This document shows positions 29,896 to 37,545 of a stretch of DNA of 64,000 nucleotides, in pieces. Both the position numbers and the translations under genes were made by a program. Origin of the DNA: Zhongshania aquimaris (GTDB lineage Bacteria; Pseudomonadota; Gammaproteobacteria; Pseudomonadales; Spongiibacteraceae). Positions within the stretch are counted from its first letter, which is position 1. Each line of letters begins with the position of its first letter. Under the pieces are notes generated by a model that did not search any database, was not told the origin of the DNA, and saw nothing but the letters and a program-made list of their open reading frames with translations. Where the stretch lies: contig NZ_JAHWDQ010000002.1 of the NCBI RefSeq assembly GCF_019312595.1, positions 62,001-126,000 of the forward strand, given 5' to 3'.

Positions 29896-31020
29896 ATGAA
29901 CTCCTCAGTCGTTATTAGCGGAGTGGGCCTATGGACCCCAGCAAATAGCATTAGCAACGAAGAACTCGTAAGTAGCTACAACGCGTGGGCCGAACACTTT
30001 AACCACGAGAATCACGCTGCTATTGAAGCGGGCGAGTTAGACGCTAAGCCACTCTCCACTGCCGCCTTTATTGAAAAAGCATCTGGCATCAAAAGCCGCT
30101 ACGCCTATTCAAAAGAAGGTATTTTAGATATCCATCGTATGCGCCCGCTGCTGGAAGTACGCGATGATGAGCAGGTCTCGCATCAAGCAGAGATGGCTAT
30201 TTCCGCAGCAAAAAAGGCGCTTATAGCCGCAAATAAAACGGCTGCTGATATTGATATGGTCATTGTGTCCTGTGCCTACACTCAACGCTCCTATCCCGCG
30301 ATTGCGATTGAAGTACAAGCGGCCTTAGGAATCGAAGGTTTTGGTTTTGATATGCTAGTCGCGTGTTCGGCAGCCACTTTTGGCTTGGAGCGAGCCGTTG
30401 ACGCAATAAAATGCGGCACGTCAAAAGGTGTATTAGTCATTAGCCCTGAACTCACCTCTCCGCAAGTTAATTACATGGATAGGGATTCCCACTTTATTTT
30501 TGGCGACGTGGCAACAGCCGTGGTGGTCGAGAGCAGCGAATCGTGCCAATCTGCCCACGCCTTCGATGTGGTAAGCACCAAATGTGTGACGGCGTACTCC
30601 AATAACATTCGCTCAAACTTTGGCTACACATCGCGGACAACCGACCAAGACCCCTATGCTGCGGATATGCTATTCCATCAAAATGGTCGCAAAGTCTTTA
30701 AAGAAGTGTGCCCCATGGCCGCCGACCACATTGAGACTCATTTGCACAGCAACGGTATTCAAGTCGCCGAGTTGAAACGCTGGTGGCTGCATCAAGCCAA
30801 TATCAATATGAATCTCTTGATCAGCAAGCGATTGCTGGGTCGCGACGCCACCCTTGAAGAGGCACCGATTGTTCTCGACGAGTATGCCAACACCGCCTCA
30901 GCGGGTTCGATCATTGCGTTTGCAAAACATCATGAAGATTTAGCCGCTGGCGATATCGGCGTGATTTGCTCCTTCGGCGCCGGTTACTCCATCGGCAGCC
31001 TCATTCTTCGGAAGCGCTAA
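29896..31020 (+). CDS. Beta-ketoacyl-ACP synthase III, PA3286-like
   Basis: A thiolase-fold condensing enzyme of 374 residues. The catalytic triad is visible: Cys157 in MLVACSAATFG, His299 in WWLHQANINMN, and Asn332 in EYANTASAGS. It resembles Pseudomonas aeruginosa PA3286, which condenses a medium-chain acyl-CoA (octanoyl-CoA) with malonyl-ACP. That reaction moves beta-oxidation intermediates back into fatty acid synthesis. The insert of about 30 residues near the N-terminus (FNHENHAAIEAGELDAKPLS) is typical of that group and absent from plain FabH. Its place beside fadE, divergently transcribed, fits a link between breakdown and synthesis. Confidence 0.88.
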   Translation: MNSSVVISGVGLWTPANSISNEELVSSYNAWAEHFNHENHAAIEAGELDAKPLSTAAFIEKASGIKSRYAYSKEGILDIHRMRPLLEVRDDEQVSHQAEMAISAAKKALIAANKTAADIDMVIVSCAYTQRSYPAIAIEVQAALGIEGFGFDMLVACSAATFGLERAVDAIKCGTSKGVLVISPELTSPQVNYMDRDSHFIFGDVATAVVVESSESCQSAHAFDVVSTKCVTAYSNNIRSNFGYTSRTTDQDPYAADMLFHQNGRKVFKEVCPMAADHIETHLHSNGIQVAELKRWWLHQANINMNLLISKRLLGRDATLEEAPIVLDEYANTASAGSIIAFAKHHEDLAAGDIGVICSFGAGYSIGSLILRKR

Positions 31021-31062: not shown

Positions 31063-31641
31063 TTAGCCACTCAACGCCTCGCGCCATGCGGCAAGCATGG
31101 TGTCGCGCTGCTCCTCACTTACCGCCGCTCGGCCCAACCATACGCTCAAAATAATCGCCGCCGACTCAGGTGAGCTAACAATGCCCAGCTGCCGGCCATT
31201 CAAAGCCAAGCCAAGCCCCTCGTCTGGCACCCAGGTGAGTTGGTAGTGATCTCCCTTCTCAACCGCTAAATACCAGCTGCAAAAGCGGGCGATATCAGCA
31301 GCTGCCGGCGCCAACTCCTGCTCGCTAAACGCACCCTCTAAAGCCTTATTGGTCATTTTCTGAAAACGTTCGGCGGACACACCGACCTTGTATTCAATAA
31401 TAATTTGCTTTGCATAACTCGGGTTTAAAATATCACCGTTCTCGGGCAATGCTTGCTGAGGATCTACTTGTAATCGGGTAAAGGTCAGGTCTTTCCACAA
31501 CAAGGTGTAGGTCTCGCTGCTGACCGTTTGCCACTCGGTGGCTTGGGCAACACTTTGCATGAATATCACGCCCGCCATCATCAGAGAATTGAGCCAGGTC
31601 CTGCGCCAAACCCTGCCACACACTTTTTGCTTGCGATTCAT
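31063..31641 (-). CDS. Exported chalcone-isomerase-like protein (Chalcone_3 family)
   Basis: A 192-residue periplasmic protein. The start at 31641 overlaps the upstream MFS gene by 4 bases (ATGA) and gives a basic start followed by a hydrophobic stretch and a VAQA cleavage site before TEW. The mature part has the chalcone-isomerase-like pattern: the YTLLWKDLTFTRLQV strand, IIIEYKVGVSAERFQKMTNKAL, a helix with FCSWYLAVEKGDHYQLTWVPDEGL, and ESAAIILSVWLG. Bacterial members lack known isomerase activity and some bind fatty acids, so a lipid-related role in the periplasm is inference. It is the last gene of the minus-strand arm of the lipid locus. Confidence 0.82.
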   Translation of the reverse strand: MNRKQKVCGRVWRRTWLNSLMMAGVIFMQSVAQATEWQTVSSETYTLLWKDLTFTRLQVDPQQALPENGDILNPSYAKQIIIEYKVGVSAERFQKMTNKALEGAFSEQELAPAAADIARFCSWYLAVEKGDHYQLTWVPDEGLGLALNGRQLGIVSSPESAAIILSVWLGRAAVSEEQRDTMLAAWREALSG

Positions 31642-32873
31642 ACATCTGCCCTCTTTCCAAGCCAAGCCACTGATTCGCGCCCCAGCATATAAAACACGCA
31701 TAATTTCAGGACTACCGGCGCAAGCACGTAAGCCGCCGTAATTGCCCACACTGGCGGCACGTCAATGTCTGCCTGACTACCCAGCCATAAATAAGACACA
31801 CCCACCGCCAAGCCCATTGCCGCTTTGCTCAGCATACTCCACAGTGCAAACATTCTTGCCCCCAGCGCAGCACCCCCATGCTCTTTAGACAACGCTTGCG
31901 CCAAGCCGGTTTGCATCGCTGAAGGTAGAGCCTGATCTGCACCCAGCATCAAGCCAGTACCAATACTAATTGCGATAAACCAGTACACATCGCCTTCGCC
32001 AAGTAATGCCGCAAAACTAAACAGCAGCGCCGAGCAGCACAGACCAATTCGCCAAGAGCGCAGGTCACCCAGCTTTTTCGCCAGAAAATACCAAAACGGC
32101 ACACCAATTAAACCTGCTAAAAAATAACTAAGTAGTGCCATCGGCACCGCATCTTCGGCGCCTAACACCTCTCGCATAAACAACAGTAAGACTGCTCCGG
32201 GTATCGCATTTGCAAACATGTTCACAAACCAGGGCAGCGCCAGGCTCCGCACCCGACAATCAGCCAGCAAGACCTTAACACTTAGGGTACTATTCGCGCC
32301 GGCAGAAAAATTCTGACTACCTTGCAAATAAACGGCAACAAACAGCGCCGCTAGCAACACGATTAGTGCCGAGGGTAGAGATGACGGCGCCACGAGCGCG
32401 GGCGCTAACATGGCTATTAAAGTACCTAATAACAGCGTGCCCTCGCGACTACTGTTATAACGCAGACGATCCATATTGTGTTGTGAGAGGTTCACAGGCA
32501 AGGCCAACCACGGTACAGTAATACCCGTCCAACCCAGCATGAGTAGTACCAGCGCGAGCGCCAGTATGCTTGGCGGCCAAGGATGAGGAATAAATGCCAA
32601 TGACATTGCGCTGGCAGCAATTAAAAGCCAAGAGCCCAACCACAGTGCTCGACCGCTGCCGTGACGATCTACCCACGCACCAGCAGGCAGGTCACTGGCA
32701 ACATCGCTAAAGCGAGCTAGAATAAATATGGTTCCCACCACGGTGTAACCATAGCCACCTTGCTCAGCCAACCACAGCGGCGCATAGATATAAAACGGCA
32801 GCCCCAATGCCGCCAGCGGCAAGCCGGGCAGCGCATAGCGAATAAATCGCCAATAGGCTAAAGGACTCCGCAT
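31638..32873 (-). CDS. MFS / GPH-like membrane transporter
   Basis: A 411-residue integral membrane protein with about eleven or twelve hydrophobic helices. The loop DLPAGAWVDRHGSGRALW between helices 2 and 3 is a variant of the MFS/GPH motif (GxWxDRxGrR). I place the start at 32873 (MRSPLAYWRFIRYALPGLPLAA). A start at 32984 would overlap the divergent gene and cross the promoter pair. The substrate is unknown. It is co-transcribed with the chalcone-isomerase-like gene by a 4-base overlap and is predicted to be driven by the minus-strand ECF-type promoter at 32940-32967. Confidence 0.87.
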   Translation of the reverse strand: MRSPLAYWRFIRYALPGLPLAALGLPFYIYAPLWLAEQGGYGYTVVGTIFILARFSDVASDLPAGAWVDRHGSGRALWLGSWLLIAASAMSLAFIPHPWPPSILALALVLLMLGWTGITVPWLALPVNLSQHNMDRLRYNSSREGTLLLGTLIAMLAPALVAPSSLPSALIVLLAALFVAVYLQGSQNFSAGANSTLSVKVLLADCRVRSLALPWFVNMFANAIPGAVLLLFMREVLGAEDAVPMALLSYFLAGLIGVPFWYFLAKKLGDLRSWRIGLCCSALLFSFAALLGEGDVYWFIAISIGTGLMLGADQALPSAMQTGLAQALSKEHGGAALGARMFALWSMLSKAAMGLAVGVSYLWLGSQADIDVPPVWAITAAYVLAPVVLKLCVFYMLGRESVAWLGKRADV

Positions 32874-32921
32874 ACAAACTCCGTAGCGGCCAAGGACGGC
32901 CCATTGCAGACTCACGCAAAG

Positions 32922-32949
32922 TGATCTGATCAATGGCAGTATACGTAAC
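32922..32949 (+). promoter_or_regulatory. Putative ECF-sigma promoter, plus arm (FAD oxidoreductase operon)
   Basis: TGATCT (32922-32927), 16 bases, then CGTAAC (32944-32949), about 30 bases upstream of the start codon at 32979. The spacing and hexamers resemble the TGATCC/CGTA-type promoters of RpoE-ChrR (group ECF11) singlet-oxygen regulons, as I recall them. The -10 overlaps that of the minus-strand promoter by its CG. Confidence 0.6.
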
Positions 32950-32967
32950 AACGAGATTGTGAGATCA
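32940..32967 (-). promoter_or_regulatory. Putative ECF-sigma promoter, minus arm (MFS operon)
   Basis: Read on the minus strand, TGATCT (32967-32962) is followed after 16 bases by CGTATA (32945-32940), about 65 bases upstream of the MFS start at 32873. It has the same -35 hexamer, spacing and CGTA core as the plus-strand site, and interlocks with it. Confidence 0.6.
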
Positions 32968-32978
32968 CTGATATTTCT

Positions 32979-34328
32979 ATGCAAACACTAACACCAAGCG
33001 CGCCTCTCAATATTGCCGTCATAGGCTCGGGCATTTCTGGCCTGAGCAGCGCGTGGCTGCTCGGCAAGCATCACAAGGTCACCTTGTTCGAGCAAGACTC
33101 GCGCTTAGGCGGCCACACCAATACCGTTGATGTGATGACCAGCGCCGGTACCGTTGCCGTCGATACCGGCTTTATTGTGTTTAATCAACGCTGCTATCCC
33201 AACTTGATCGCCTTATTCAAAGAGCTAGGCGTTGTCTATCAAGGCACCGATATGTCCTTCGGCGTATCGCTAGATAAAGGCCGCTTGGAATACAGTGGCT
33301 CTAATTCAATATCGACCTTGTTTGCGCAAAAACGAAATCTCTTCCGGCCGCGATTTTGGGGCATGATCCGCGACCTACTGCGCTTTTATAAACAAAGCGC
33401 AGCTTGGCTGCATTCACTGCCAGACGATATGTCCTTGGGCGAGTTACTAGAACGCGAGAAATTTGGCCCCGGCTTTTGCCAAGATCACCTGCTCCCGATG
33501 GGAGCCGCCATTTGGTCAACGCCGGTAGAAAAATTCATGGCCTACCCAGCCAAAACCTTTCTGCGCTTCTGCGACAATCACGGTTTGCTACAAGTTAACG
33601 AGCGCCCCCAGTGGCAAACGGTCATAGGCGGTTCGCGGGAGTACGTAAAGCGTATTCAGCAAACCTTCACTGGCGATATCCGACTAAACTGCAAAGTAGC
33701 CAAAGTGCGTCGCTTTCACGACCACGTCATAATCACCGACAACAATGGTGAAAATCACCGCTTTGACCATGTCGTGATGGCCGGTCACGCCGATCAATCG
33801 CTAGCGATGCTCGACGACGCAAATGCCGATGAACAACGCCTGCTAGGTGCCTTTGCCTACGAGCAAAATGACGCCGTACTGCACCGCGATGAAAAACTAA
33901 TGCCAGTGCTCGGTGAAGTGTGGTCGAGCTGGAACTATCTAGCCGACAGAGAACAAGATGGTAGCAAAGTATCGGTTAGCTACTGGATGAATTCCCTGCA
34001 GCACTTGCCCTGTAACGAGCAGTTAATTGTTACCCTAAACCCGCTACGCAGACCGAGAAAACATTTGGTTTACGAGCAGTTTAGCTACCAACATCCGGTG
34101 TTCGACGATGCCGCCCTCAATGCGCAAAAACACCTTTGGAGCCTGCAGGGCAAACAGCGTACCTGGTTTTGCGGCAGTTATTTTGGCTATGGCTTCCACG
34201 AAGATGGCATTCAATCAGGCCTTGCCGTCGCCGAACAATTAGGTGGCGTTGCGCGGCCTTGGAATACGGAAAAGGCCAGCGACCGCATCCACGTGCACGC
34301 CGCAAGCACCTTAACCGCTGCGGCATGA
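32979..34328 (+). CDS. FAD/NAD(P)-binding oxidoreductase (amine-oxidase-like)
   Basis: A 449-residue flavoprotein. The N-terminal dinucleotide-binding motif IAVIGSGISGLSSAWLL is followed by FEQDSRLGGHTNTVDV, the Glu for the FAD ribose and the RxGGH motif of the amine-oxidase/desaturase group. Later come AVDTGFIVFN and, near the C-terminus, GSYFGYGFHEDGIQSG for FAD closure. This family is regularly linked to DUF1365 and cyclopropane-synthase genes, and related genes belong to the RpoE-ChrR response of Rhodobacter. A role in modifying membrane acyl chains is inferred from that linkage. Its stop overlaps the DUF1365 start. Confidence 0.88.
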   Translation: MQTLTPSAPLNIAVIGSGISGLSSAWLLGKHHKVTLFEQDSRLGGHTNTVDVMTSAGTVAVDTGFIVFNQRCYPNLIALFKELGVVYQGTDMSFGVSLDKGRLEYSGSNSISTLFAQKRNLFRPRFWGMIRDLLRFYKQSAAWLHSLPDDMSLGELLEREKFGPGFCQDHLLPMGAAIWSTPVEKFMAYPAKTFLRFCDNHGLLQVNERPQWQTVIGGSREYVKRIQQTFTGDIRLNCKVAKVRRFHDHVIITDNNGENHRFDHVVMAGHADQSLAMLDDANADEQRLLGAFAYEQNDAVLHRDEKLMPVLGEVWSSWNYLADREQDGSKVSVSYWMNSLQHLPCNEQLIVTLNPLRRPRKHLVYEQFSYQHPVFDDAALNAQKHLWSLQGKQRTWFCGSYFGYGFHEDGIQSGLAVAEQLGGVARPWNTEKASDRIHVHAASTLTAAA

Positions 34329-35110
34329 CTGCCGACGATCACACGGCGATATACTGTGGAGAAGTGATGCACCATCGCTTCTATCCGCGCAAACATCGCT
34401 TTGTGTATCGCATGAGCAGCTTTTTATTCGACCTAGACAAACTGGATGAGACGGCACACCGCTGCAAGCTGTTCTCGTTTAATAGTTTTAACTTCTTTAG
34501 CTTTTACAATCGCGACGTCGGCAATGGCAGCGGTGAAGCGCCGCGCGAATATCTTGAGCGCACCTTACTCGAGCACGGCGTAAGTACCCCTCTTAAGTCC
34601 GCAAGCCTGCTCTGCTACCCGCGCATTTTAGGATTCACCTTCAATCCGCTGAGCGTTTATTATTGCTACGGTGACGATTCGCAGCTGTTCGCTATCTTGT
34701 ACGAAGTCAGTAACACGTTTAAGCAGCGCCATACCTACTTAATCCCCGTATCTGAAAGCGACCAGGGCAAAGGTATAGTCCGCCAGCAATGCGATAAAAA
34801 TTTTTACGTATCGCCATTTATTCCCATGGCTGTGCGCTATCATTTTCGAATGCACCTGCCGACTGAGCGTATCAGCTTGGCAATTCGCGAGACCGAGCAC
34901 GAAAAGCCGCTTCTTCACGCCGTATTCCGGGGCGAAAGACGTCCTTTCTCAGATTGGGAGTTACTTAAGAATCTTGTCAGCTTGCCGTTAATGACCGTTA
35001 AGGCCGTAGTCGGTATTCACTGGGAAGCCCTAAAACTTTTTATCAAAGGTGTGAAATTAGTACCTCGCCCAGCTGAACCGAAAGCGTCAGTTTCACGTAT
35101 TGACCAATAA
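34325..35110 (+). CDS. DUF1365 family protein
   Basis: A 261-residue protein of unknown biochemistry. It starts at the ATG at 34325 that overlaps the stop of the FAD oxidoreductase (ATGA). The opening YCGEVMHHRFYPRKHRFVYRMS is the DUF1365 hallmark. Further conserved parts are LCYPRILGFTFNPLSVYYCY and KNFYVSPFIPM. The family nearly always sits between an FAD oxidoreductase and a cyclopropane-fatty-acid-synthase homolog, as here, so it is thought to act on lipids. The frame extends upstream but only in antiphase with the preceding gene. Confidence 0.92.
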   Translation: MTADDHTAIYCGEVMHHRFYPRKHRFVYRMSSFLFDLDKLDETAHRCKLFSFNSFNFFSFYNRDVGNGSGEAPREYLERTLLEHGVSTPLKSASLLCYPRILGFTFNPLSVYYCYGDDSQLFAILYEVSNTFKQRHTYLIPVSESDQGKGIVRQQCDKNFYVSPFIPMAVRYHFRMHLPTERISLAIRETEHEKPLLHAVFRGERRPFSDWELLKNLVSLPLMTVKAVVGIHWEALKLFIKGVKLVPRPAEPKASVSRIDQ

Positions 35111-35138: not shown

Positions 35139-36383
35139 ATGAAGACAGCCACTGCTGCTCTCGAAAATAATATCGGTACTGGCTGGTGGGCGAAGCGCCA
35201 ACAGCAAATGGTTGCGAAAGTTCTCGCCCCACTATCACATGCAAAGCGAGGTGTTTTGCGGCTCACCCTGCCCAACGGCAACAGCATTGAATTCGGCGAA
35301 CACCCCTGCGATCATTTCAACCCCGTGATTGTGCTGCACAACTGGAAGGCTGTACGCAAAGCCTTTACCGGCGGCTCAGTGGGCTGGAGTGAAGCGTATA
35401 TGGATGGCGACTGGGACAGCCCCGACGTCGCGATGTTAGTGGAATGGATTGTCATTAACGAAGACTATTTTGGCGGCATGCTGGACAGTGGCAAAATCGA
35501 GGGTGCCTTCCAAAAGTGGCGGCATCAACGCAATGCCAATAGCAAACGTGGCAGCCGACGCAATATTTCCTATCACTACGACTTAGGTAATGAATTTTAC
35601 CAGCAGTGGCTAGATCCCAGCATGACCTACTCGGCTGCCTATTACACCGACGATCATCAAACGCTGGCCGAAGCGCAGTACGCTAAATATCAGCGGATCA
35701 TAGATCTGCTTGATATCAAAGACGGCGACCGCATTCTCGAAATCGGCTGCGGTTGGGGCGGGTTTGCGGAACAAGTCTGCAGCCAAAAGAAAGTCTCCCT
35801 GCATGGCATCACGCTTTCTGAGCGACAGCTAGAGTTTGCTCAACAGCGCTTAGCCAAAACGGCGACACTGGGCAGTGCCGAGTTCAGTCTCACCGACTAT
35901 CGCGATACCAAGGGTGAGTACGACCACATTGTCTCTATTGAGATGCTAGAAGCGGTGGGCGAAAAATATTGGCCAAATTACTTCGAGACTGTCTGCAAGC
36001 GCCTCAAGCCGGGTGGCAAAGCCTCGGTGCAAATTATCACCATTGAAGACAAACGTTTTGCGCAGTACAGCACTAATCCCGACTTTATTCAGACCTATAT
36101 TTTCCCCGGCGGCATGCTGCCAACACCAAACATCTTCAAGAAACAAGCGGAACTAGCGGGCTTGAGTGTCGCCGATGAAGAAGCCTTCGGCTTAGACTAT
36201 GCCCGCACCCTCCGTGAGTGGGGCGATAAATTCCATCAGCGATGGGAAGAGATTGCGCCACTGGGCTTTGATAAACGCTTTCAAAGAATGTGGCATTACT
36301 ATTTAACTTATTGCGAGGGCGGCTTCCGCGGTAATTCCATCGACGTTTATCAGTTCGTGCTGGAAAAGCCAGCGCAACATTAG
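35139..36383 (+). CDS. cfa: Cyclopropane-fatty-acyl-phospholipid synthase family methyltransferase
   Basis: A SAM-dependent enzyme that methylenates or methylates double bonds of acyl chains in membrane phospholipids. The 414 residues include an N-terminal lipid-binding domain (EAYMDGDWDS near 85-94) and YHYDLGNEFYQQWLDPSMTYSAAY. The SAM motif I LEIGCGWGGF is at 200-209, with SIEMLEAVG next and FPGGMLPT in the C-terminal half. All these fit the CFA synthase family. In this operon type the enzyme may make modified fatty acids other than plain cyclopropanes (for example furan precursors in Rhodobacter), which is inference. The gene follows DUF1365 by 28 bases and ends at a strong terminator. 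Confidence 0.92.
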   Translation: MKTATAALENNIGTGWWAKRQQQMVAKVLAPLSHAKRGVLRLTLPNGNSIEFGEHPCDHFNPVIVLHNWKAVRKAFTGGSVGWSEAYMDGDWDSPDVAMLVEWIVINEDYFGGMLDSGKIEGAFQKWRHQRNANSKRGSRRNISYHYDLGNEFYQQWLDPSMTYSAAYYTDDHQTLAEAQYAKYQRIIDLLDIKDGDRILEIGCGWGGFAEQVCSQKKVSLHGITLSERQLEFAQQRLAKTATLGSAEFSLTDYRDTKGEYDHIVSIEMLEAVGEKYWPNYFETVCKRLKPGGKASVQIITIEDKRFAQYSTNPDFIQTYIFPGGMLPTPNIFKKQAELAGLSVADEEAFGLDYARTLREWGDKFHQRWEEIAPLGFDKRFQRMWHYYLTYCEGGFRGNSIDVYQFVLEKPAQH

Positions 36384-36453: not shown

Positions 36454-37545
36454 CTACTTCGCTTTTTCCGCCACTGCCGCTCGACAGCCCTCAACCCAAG
36501 GCATAAGTAGTTCCAGGGCTGTTTTGTCATTTTCTGGCAGCTCGTCGTGACACTCCGCCAATGGCCTAATCCGTGAGCCCCATTTAATGACCGCAGCGCC
36601 CCAGGTTAAACCTGCGCCAAAGGCGGCGGTTAAAATTTTATCACCCGGTTGAATACGGCCCTCTTCCAAGGCTTCGCATAATGCAATCGGCACGGTAGCA
36701 GCGGACGTATTGCCGTACTTCTCTATATTAACCACCACCTTTTCCGGTGGGGATTTCATTCGTTTCGCCAAGGTATCGATAATTCTTAAATTTGCTTGAT
36801 GCGGAACCAAGAGGTCAATTTGCTCGGGCTCTAATGCCAACTTCTCCAGCACACTGGTGATGGCCTGCCCCATGCCGCGAACCGCTCGTTTGAAAATTTC
36901 TTGACCCTCAAAATTCACATCAAAAAAACCGTCAACTCCAGCAAAGCGCTCGCGTACCGTACCTGAATCTCGCGCCGCTAATATATCTCGCGCTTCGCCG
37001 TCGCAGCCCAATTTTTCTGCGATCAAACCGCACTCTTCATCGCAGGCCTCTAAGACCACCGCGCCAGCACCATCGCCAAACAGCACCGATACATCCCGTA
37101 TCGTGTAATCGAGAAAGTAAGGAATACGGTCAGCGCCAATGACCAACACCTTTTTCATCGCGCCGCTGCGAATCATAGCGGTGCCGATACTCAAACCGTA
37201 TACAAAGCCGGTGCACGCCGCATTAAGGTCAAAAACCGCTGCATTCACCGCGCCAATACTGGCCTGAACAAAAGACGCCGCATTGGGTATTAATGTGTCG
37301 GGACACGCTGTGCCTAAAATCACCATATCTAATTCGGCTGCATCTAAACCCGCAGCGGCTAAGGCGCGCTTAGCAGCCAAACTAGCGAGCGTCGCGGTAG
37401 ACACATGGGAAATACGGCGCTCTTTTATGCCAGTACGTGTTGAGATCCACTCGTCAGAGGTATCTAGAAACGTGGCCAAATCTTCGTTGCTAAGCACCGC
37501 AGGCGGCAAGCATTTTCCCCAACCTGTGATATTCGCAAATTGCAT
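36454..37545 (-). CDS. Ketoacyl-ACP synthase III (FabH family)
   Basis: A 363-residue condensing enzyme. The triad is intact: Cys111 in NAACTGFVYG, His249 in VPHQANLR and Asn279 in YGNTSAA. The start ITGWGKCLPPAVLSNEDL and DTSDEWISTRTGIKERRIS are typical FabH. It is about 40 residues longer than E. coli FabH, with a charged helical tail after VIKWGSRIRP. Such tailed FabH paralogs are common in pseudomonads and their primer preference is unknown, so it may or may not be the housekeeping initiation enzyme. It diverges from a TetR gene over a 199-base gap. Confidence 0.9.
   Translation of the reverse strand: MQFANITGWGKCLPPAVLSNEDLATFLDTSDEWISTRTGIKERRISHVSTATLASLAAKRALAAAGLDAAELDMVILGTACPDTLIPNAASFVQASIGAVNAAVFDLNAACTGFVYGLSIGTAMIRSGAMKKVLVIGADRIPYFLDYTIRDVSVLFGDGAGAVVLEACDEECGLIAEKLGCDGEARDILAARDSGTVRERFAGVDGFFDVNFEGQEIFKRAVRGMGQAITSVLEKLALEPEQIDLLVPHQANLRIIDTLAKRMKSPPEKVVVNIEKYGNTSAATVPIALCEALEEGRIQPGDKILTAAFGAGLTWGAAVIKWGSRIRPLAECHDELPENDKTALELLMPWVEGCRAAVAEKAK

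Follow-up and report, generated by a model that had tools for sequence, protein, structure and literature searches.

A candidate ECF11-type bidirectional promoter with a shared TACGTA core between a furan-fatty-acid-type operon and an MFS transporter gene in Zhongshania

The promoters closest to those analyzed here belong to RpoE-ChrR stress systems. For the P. syringae sigma homologue, the consensus is given as TGATCC-n16-CGTA, with a TGATCT-type variant for PSPTO_4335 (PMC5507510), and Shewanella RpoE2 promoters are given as TGATCC and CGTATT (PMC4336711). The core regulon set out in Table 2 of PMC5507510 comprises rpoE, chrR, SDR, RSP1088, RSP1090, a flavin amine oxidase (RSP1091), phrB, and cfa. 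In R. sphaeroides, methylated furan fatty acid synthesis is ascribed to UfaD (RSP1091), UfaO (RSP1090, which contains DUF1365), and UfaM (RSP2144), and the 402-amino-acid RSP1089 shares one operon with ufaD and ufaO (PMC7380195). Mutants in the furan-fatty-acid genes are described as defective in raising sigmaE activity upon exposure to singlet oxygen (PMC6852236), from which a positive loop between these genes and sigmaE activity would be plausible by analogy.

A second kind of known system bears on this locus. Warman, Grainger, and colleagues describe bidirectional promoters in E. coli and Salmonella whose divergent starts lie 7 to 25 bp apart, 18 bp being the commonest distance (PMC12825309 and PMC10268837). 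At such promoters, as described in PMC12825309, one polymerase excludes the other, with competition at high activity and no interference at low basal activity. They were described for -10 elements of the housekeeping type, which are nearly symmetric and therefore arise often by accident. The HrpL case, in which a sigma54 promoter faces an ECF promoter, is of another kind (PMC5263251). We found no ECF-dependent bidirectional promoter among the open PubMed Central papers listed, judged by title and abstract opening, a scope that does not prove absence. Each component is known by itself (bidirectional promoters, ECF11 promoters, and the targets of the latter); their combination was not seen among the papers listed.

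The window (the whole stretch of Zhongshania aquimaris DNA that was analyzed, 64,000 nucleotides) contains a 46-bp inverted repeat, read directly from the sequence, in which TGATCT-N16-CGTA occurs both on the plus strand (32922-32947) and on the minus strand (32967-32942), with the centre of symmetry at 32944.5. The plus half has its -35 TGATCT at 32922-32927, a 16-base spacer, and its -10 CGTA at 32944-32947 and is predicted to be an ECF11-type promoter for an operon of FAD-oxidoreductase, DUF1365, and Cfa genes. The minus half, predicted to be the corresponding promoter of a divergent MFS gene, has its -35 TGATCT at 32967-32962, the same 16-base spacer, and its -10 CGTA at 32945-32942. The original prediction had placed these elements on both strands with overlapping -10 hexamers in a gap of 105 bases. 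It was right to the base: the gap lies between the MFS ATG at 32873 and the FAD-gene ATG at 32979, and the self-complementary core TACGTA (32942-32947), which also stands out in the genus alignment, yields CGTA on each strand. Reciprocal overlap of -10 elements on opposite strands is the mark of a bidirectional promoter, and TACGTA shows it. Perfect 8-base outer arms, AGTGATCT at 32920-32927 and AGATCACT at 32962-32969, extend the full inverted repeat to 32920-32969. No sigma70-like promoter was found in the 105-base gap by a simple scan.

The resemblance of the hexamers to ECF11 promoters, proposed at the outset, is borne out by the published P. syringae consensus TGATCC-n16-CGTA (PMC5507510), which both halves match save for one position, each -35 being TGATCT rather than TGATCC. 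In its -35, spacer, -10, and sigma/anti-sigma pair, the system is thus like R. sphaeroides RpoE, P. syringae PSPTO_1043, and Shewanella RpoE2 as these are described in the papers cited. Where those descriptions give ECF11 promoters singly, however, two are fused here through one -10, with TGATCT on both sides. With the bidirectional promoters described for E. coli and Salmonella, the locus shares a symmetric common -10 and, as we propose, use by polymerase in one orientation at a time. It differs from them in that their -10 is sigma70-type and TATAAT-like, whereas the CGTA -10 and the -35s here are of the stress ECF type.

On the plus strand, the repeat is followed by a UfaD-like FAD-dependent oxidoreductase gene of the RSP1091 type (32979-34328; Pfam Amino_oxidase/NAD_binding_8), a UfaO-like DUF1365 gene (34136-35110; E 4e-76), and a UfaM-like gene for a methyltransferase of the cyclopropane-fatty-acid-synthase family (35139-36383; Pfam CMAS, E 5.3e-86). 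From its family and the operon order, we infer that the oxidoreductase is the UfaD counterpart. The DUF1365 frame as listed starts inside the preceding gene, so its true start is probably further in. On the minus strand lie the MFS transporter gene (31638-32873; Pfam MFS_2), which encodes 411 amino acids from the ATG at 32873 and whose mechanical open reading frame extends to a TTG at 32984, and then a chalcone-isomerase-like gene (31063-31749; Pfam Chalcone_3) of uncertain start codon. The MFS gene is kin to a transporter found downstream of cfa in some relatives (with a homologue in genome G056), and R. sphaeroides RSP1089 is presumably an MFS transporter. That the downstream families belong to the singlet oxygen response had been part of the prediction, and the FAD oxidoreductase, DUF1365, and CMAS families do match the core regulon published in PMC5507510.

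We considered whether so short a gap could hold this arrangement by accident. The window contains TGATCY-N16-CGTA twice where 0.07 matches were expected, and none of 100 shuffles gave as many as two. Since a single inverted repeat supplies both matches, one half each, they count as one event rather than as independent ones; the earlier argument that identical elements on both strands are unlikely by chance thus stands in that chance is still very unlikely, although only one coincidence is involved. A draw of 390 genomes of the order gave TGATC-N15-TACGTA-N15-GATCA in 12, and 10 of these were of the window's genus (17 genus genomes in the draw) with the match at the same locus; in the remaining two genomes (G085 and G332), the matches sit within open reading frames, that of G085 in a 325-amino-acid frame. 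A draw across the phylum, which has some genomes in common with that of the order, gave the symmetric pattern in 2 of 398 genomes, namely, the window's own and G332. Accordingly, no noncoding example was found outside the genus in either draw. Chance resemblance does gain something from the commonness of loose TGATC...CGTA strings, of which the genome has 65, and from the 25 of 27 TGATCR-N16 sites that a script placed within open reading frames. Set against the expectation of 0.07 in the window, the want of noncoding examples outside the genus in the 390 and 398 genomes, and the conservation in the genus across 66 to 100% protein identity, we regard it as having a negligible probability. In G332, the same perfect 46-base palindrome occurs twice (loci L193 and L204), each time within an inverted repeat and with matching frames on both strands; on reading the sequence, these frames look transposase-like, and they are unrelated to the promoter.

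An orthologue of the FAD gene is present in 17 of 18 genomes of the genus (66 to 100% identity), and the MFS gene is divergent at all 17 loci. Neither rpoE nor chrR was found within the approximately 1.5-kb flank of any of them. Both halves of the repeat are in register at 11 of the 17. The minus half is intact alone at five (L011, L012, L013, L015, and L016) and the plus half alone at one (L014), and the TGATC and CGTA of the minus half are intact at 16. Since one half has decayed at 6 of the 17 loci, some species evidently do without two-way use. Taken over all 17 loci, intact or not, the first four columns of TACGTA agree in 17/17 and the last two in 16/17; mean column agreement is 16.7 of 17 for TACGTA, 14.0 for the plus -35, and 16.4 for the minus -35, versus 8.7 and 9.3 in the spacers. 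The pattern recurs in named records of Neomelitea salexigens DSM 19753 (L112) and a Zhongshania MAG (L113).

These data bear on a simpler explanation, which is that one half alone works in this species and that the other is decaying or fortuitous and is kept by symmetry. One-direction states clearly survive in the genus, with the plus half degenerate at 5 of 17 loci and the minus half at 1 of 17. In the window species, however, both halves match fully and each has a gene at promoter distance, and the -35 columns on both sides are better conserved than the spacers. Moreover, each -35 lies outside the core elements of the other half, so that a symmetric -10 would not by itself preserve it. We therefore consider one-way use improbable here and favor a promoter that is used in both directions.

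On a tree of the FAD proteins, the intact state needs four changes and is itself scattered over the genus, which fits an early origin followed by repeated loss of one half. Locus L019 falls with the sister genus at moderate support (89/82), so the interlocking could date from the ancestor of either the genus or the family. At the five loci with a degenerate plus half and an intact minus half, the ufaD-type operon may have passed out of RpoE control or onto another promoter. In G009 (L231), the nearest relative of the FAD gene is just 43% identical and has no such promoter upstream, ChrR is kept, and a search at E 1e-20 gave no MFS relative; this genome has apparently lost the locus.

We then compared named ufaD-type loci beyond the genus, taking the 80 top-ranking entries of a longer list (mostly alpha- and gammaproteobacterial by title; two with fewer than 200 bases upstream). 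The strict motif was present on both strands at 40, on the minus strand only at 18, on the plus strand only at 9, and on neither at 13. Of the both-strand loci, 38 carry separate back-to-back promoters, with -35 starts 10 to 187 bp apart (median, 43), and 2 are interlocked (L112 and L113, both of the window's genus). Among the loci examined, therefore, interlocking is seen only in the window's genus, and the back-to-back layout is commoner. The back-to-back loci have the same ECF11-type motif on both strands and the same ufaD-type gene as the locus here. They differ in that their promoters point apart with no common element and in what lies divergent, which is an ECF relative of the window genome's rpoE at 36 of the 38 (60 of all 80) and the MFS gene here. 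A transporter of the same family lies downstream on the same strand in at least 29 of the 80 loci, a lower bound because loci end at that point; in G056 it follows cfa. In the sister genus (G018 to G020), the divergent position is taken by a chalcone-isomerase-like gene, no relative of the MFS gene came up at E 1e-20, and the ufaD-type gene carries a single strict site, on the plus strand. From these layouts, interlocking probably replaced a back-to-back arrangement.

The same comparison speaks to another reading, in which a dimeric regulator, whether repressor or activator (of the TetR, LuxR, or MerR type, for instance), binds the palindrome as its operator and the ECF11 likeness is secondary. 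The repeat is a good one, with 8-base arms, as such an operator would be. Yet the half-site, with the same internal spacing, stands singly before the rpoE, photolyase-operon, SDR, and DUF4331 genes, and the two halves occur as separate back-to-back promoters in other taxa (38 of the 40 both-site loci). Arms 34 bases apart around a conserved centre are also unusual for the operator of a dimer. We consider this reading very unlikely and, given the single half-sites elsewhere, rejected a LitR/MerR-type or other operator as the main interpretation in favor of the two-way promoter.

A promoter of this kind calls for its sigma factor, and the search for an ECF11/ChrR pair in the genome found one. 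A single ChrR exceeds the TIGR02451 cutoff (190.8 bits, or 191.4 on rescoring, versus 124.5), and directly before chrR lies a gene for a 187-amino-acid ECF sigma factor. The best PDB match of the sigma factor is 2q1z, R. sphaeroides RpoE (121 bits; the next match has 59.6), and the only two PDB matches of the ChrR protein, 2z2s and 2q1z, are both ChrR. The zinc ligands given for R. sphaeroides ChrR are H6, H31, C35, and C38 together with H141, H143, E147, and H177 (PMC6852236), and an alignment read by eye shows all eight to be kept. Of 25 NCBIfam models listed for the sigma factor, none but the general sigma70-ECF superfamily model passes its own cutoff, so the ECF11 label rests on similarity to RpoE and ChrR. 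The ChrR equivalog model NF051881 is below its cutoff, at 144.2 of the 300 bits needed. A TGATCC-N16-CGTA ends 25 bases upstream of the rpoE start codon, overlapping the final codons of a 136-amino-acid open reading frame, and this site suggests that rpoE-chrR would be autoregulated. All 18 genus genomes have a ChrR over the cutoff, and 15 have the strict motif before rpoE (the misses are L206, L214, and L216). A second Cupin_7 protein in the genome (L002) was set aside, with no sigma gene among the open reading frames listed beside it.

Genome-wide, TGATCY-N16-CGTA has 16 sites, which are the two focal sites, that of rpoE, and 13 others. The genes after seven further sites include one for a 2-thiouracil-desulfurase/DUF1722 protein, followed by DNA photolyase. 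Motif sites also lie upstream of an SRPBCC-SDR protein gene, ahead of a gene for a ligand-gated-channel-like protein, 228 bases upstream of a small protein, and 161 bases from a 446-amino-acid fragment that is TonB-receptor-like by reading. The expectation of more TGATC(C/T)-N16-CGTA sites before related genes was thus realized at rpoE, the DUF1722-photolyase genes, the SRPBCC-SDR gene, and the DUF4331 gene. Of the eight members of the published core regulon, seven were compared, by family rather than by tree (rpoE, chrR, SDR, RSP1090, RSP1091, phrB, and cfa), and all seven have a matching family in motif-bearing genes or operons here. The targets in common with RpoE-ChrR systems are phrB, cfa/ufaM, DUF1365, FAD oxidoreductase, and SDR.

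Placement of the sites was scored with one script for all. Sites not covered by a chosen open reading frame numbered 6/16 versus 9/60 comparison sites (P = 0.05), or 6/13 without the three focal sites (P = 0.02). Those three, the two here and that of rpoE, score as covered: the mechanical MFS and FAD frames, which begin at upstream start codons, cross the former, and the rpoE site touches the end of the preceding frame. A laxer rule, set after an earlier count had been seen, asked whether a site was deep in a frame, with a distance of 100 bases or more to the first start codon and 40 or more to the stop; 11/16 sites were not deep versus 15/60 (P = 0.002), or 8/13 without the focal three (P = 0.015). 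By comparison set, uncovered and not-deep sites numbered 3 and 6 of 17 for other spacings, 0 and 0 of 7 for N15, 4 and 4 of 9 for N17, and 2 and 5 of 27 for TGATCR-N16. The N17 set, at 4/9 uncovered, is not clearly background. The other-spacing comparison drew on 20 consecutive sites (3 of them N17) among the 100 of 132 matches listed, and 15 TGATCR-N15 sites were left out. The number of TGATCY-N16 sites is by itself weak support, at 16 versus about 10 per spacing (132 matches over 13 spacings). Reversed patterns gave 35 versus 65 and 81 versus 132 forward matches, a difference in the same direction; strings containing CTAG may be depleted, and we did not lean on these controls for that reason. 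Taken together, genome-wide placement of the motif supports function only modestly, and the identity of the genes after the sites is more telling.

Two of these sites deserve mention in their own right. At the DUF4331 gene (L044 and also L109), TGATCT-N16-CGTA lies 37 bases before the start. On the minus strand of L111 (8490-8515), TGATCC-N16-CGTA precedes a 110-amino-acid open reading frame without a Pfam match and then a gene for a 1,010-amino-acid protein with YadA head-repeat and anchor regions, a possible unusual ECF11 target.

The motif, its symmetry and conservation, the sigma/anti-sigma pair with its own motif, and the regulon-type genes that carry the motif support the ECF11 reading. 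In our judgment, the repeat is probably an ECF11-dependent bidirectional promoter, under RpoE held by ChrR, that serves the furan-fatty-acid-type operon and the MFS transporter gene. Each half would supply its own -35 (TGATCT), and the self-complementary TACGTA would be the -10 for both. Singlet oxygen or organic peroxide would remove ChrR, and RpoE-RNA polymerase would then bind in either orientation, one giving the UfaD-, UfaO-, and UfaM-like furan-fatty-acid-type operon and the other giving the MFS transporter and probably also the chalcone-isomerase-like gene. We infer that both halves are transcribed, with starts predicted about 7 bases after each CGTA, at 32953-32955 (near 32954) on the plus strand for the ufaD-type operon and at 32934-32936 (near 32935) on the minus strand for the MFS gene. 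These divergent starts would be about 19 bp apart, inside the 7- to 25-bp range of bidirectional promoters, and each -35 falls in the predicted leader of the opposite gene. The same bases would be melted in both orientations, admitting one polymerase at a time. The two transcripts would thus have one inducer, with next to no expression in the absence of stress, a rise of both along with RpoE, and competition once induction is full.

Whether this arrangement is an evolved bidirectional stress promoter is a question on which we are evenly divided. Such a history would have rpoE-chrR leave the divergent place that it occupies in many relatives, the MFS gene move in, and the palindrome replace separate promoters. 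Under photo-oxidative stress, mutual exclusion would then fix how much furan fatty acid is made relative to transport, with no extra regulator, and species with one decayed half would represent one-way versions found in nature.

Taken by itself, a CGTA-type ECF promoter lacks symmetry, and two-way use needs TACGTA and two full -35s in exact register. That so demanding an arrangement is conserved suggests selection for initiation that is shared and proceeds in one direction at a time. Transcription either way would require the same inducible sigma factor, which would make a clean natural system for polymerase competition under induction, for which the one-half species and the commoner back-to-back layout are ready-made comparisons. 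Furan-fatty-acid-type synthesis and an uncharacterized MFS transporter would likewise be placed on one switch. The block as a whole is flanked on both sides by genes for ketoacyl-synthase-III-like proteins, at 29896-31020 (by reading) and 36454-37545 (by Pfam).
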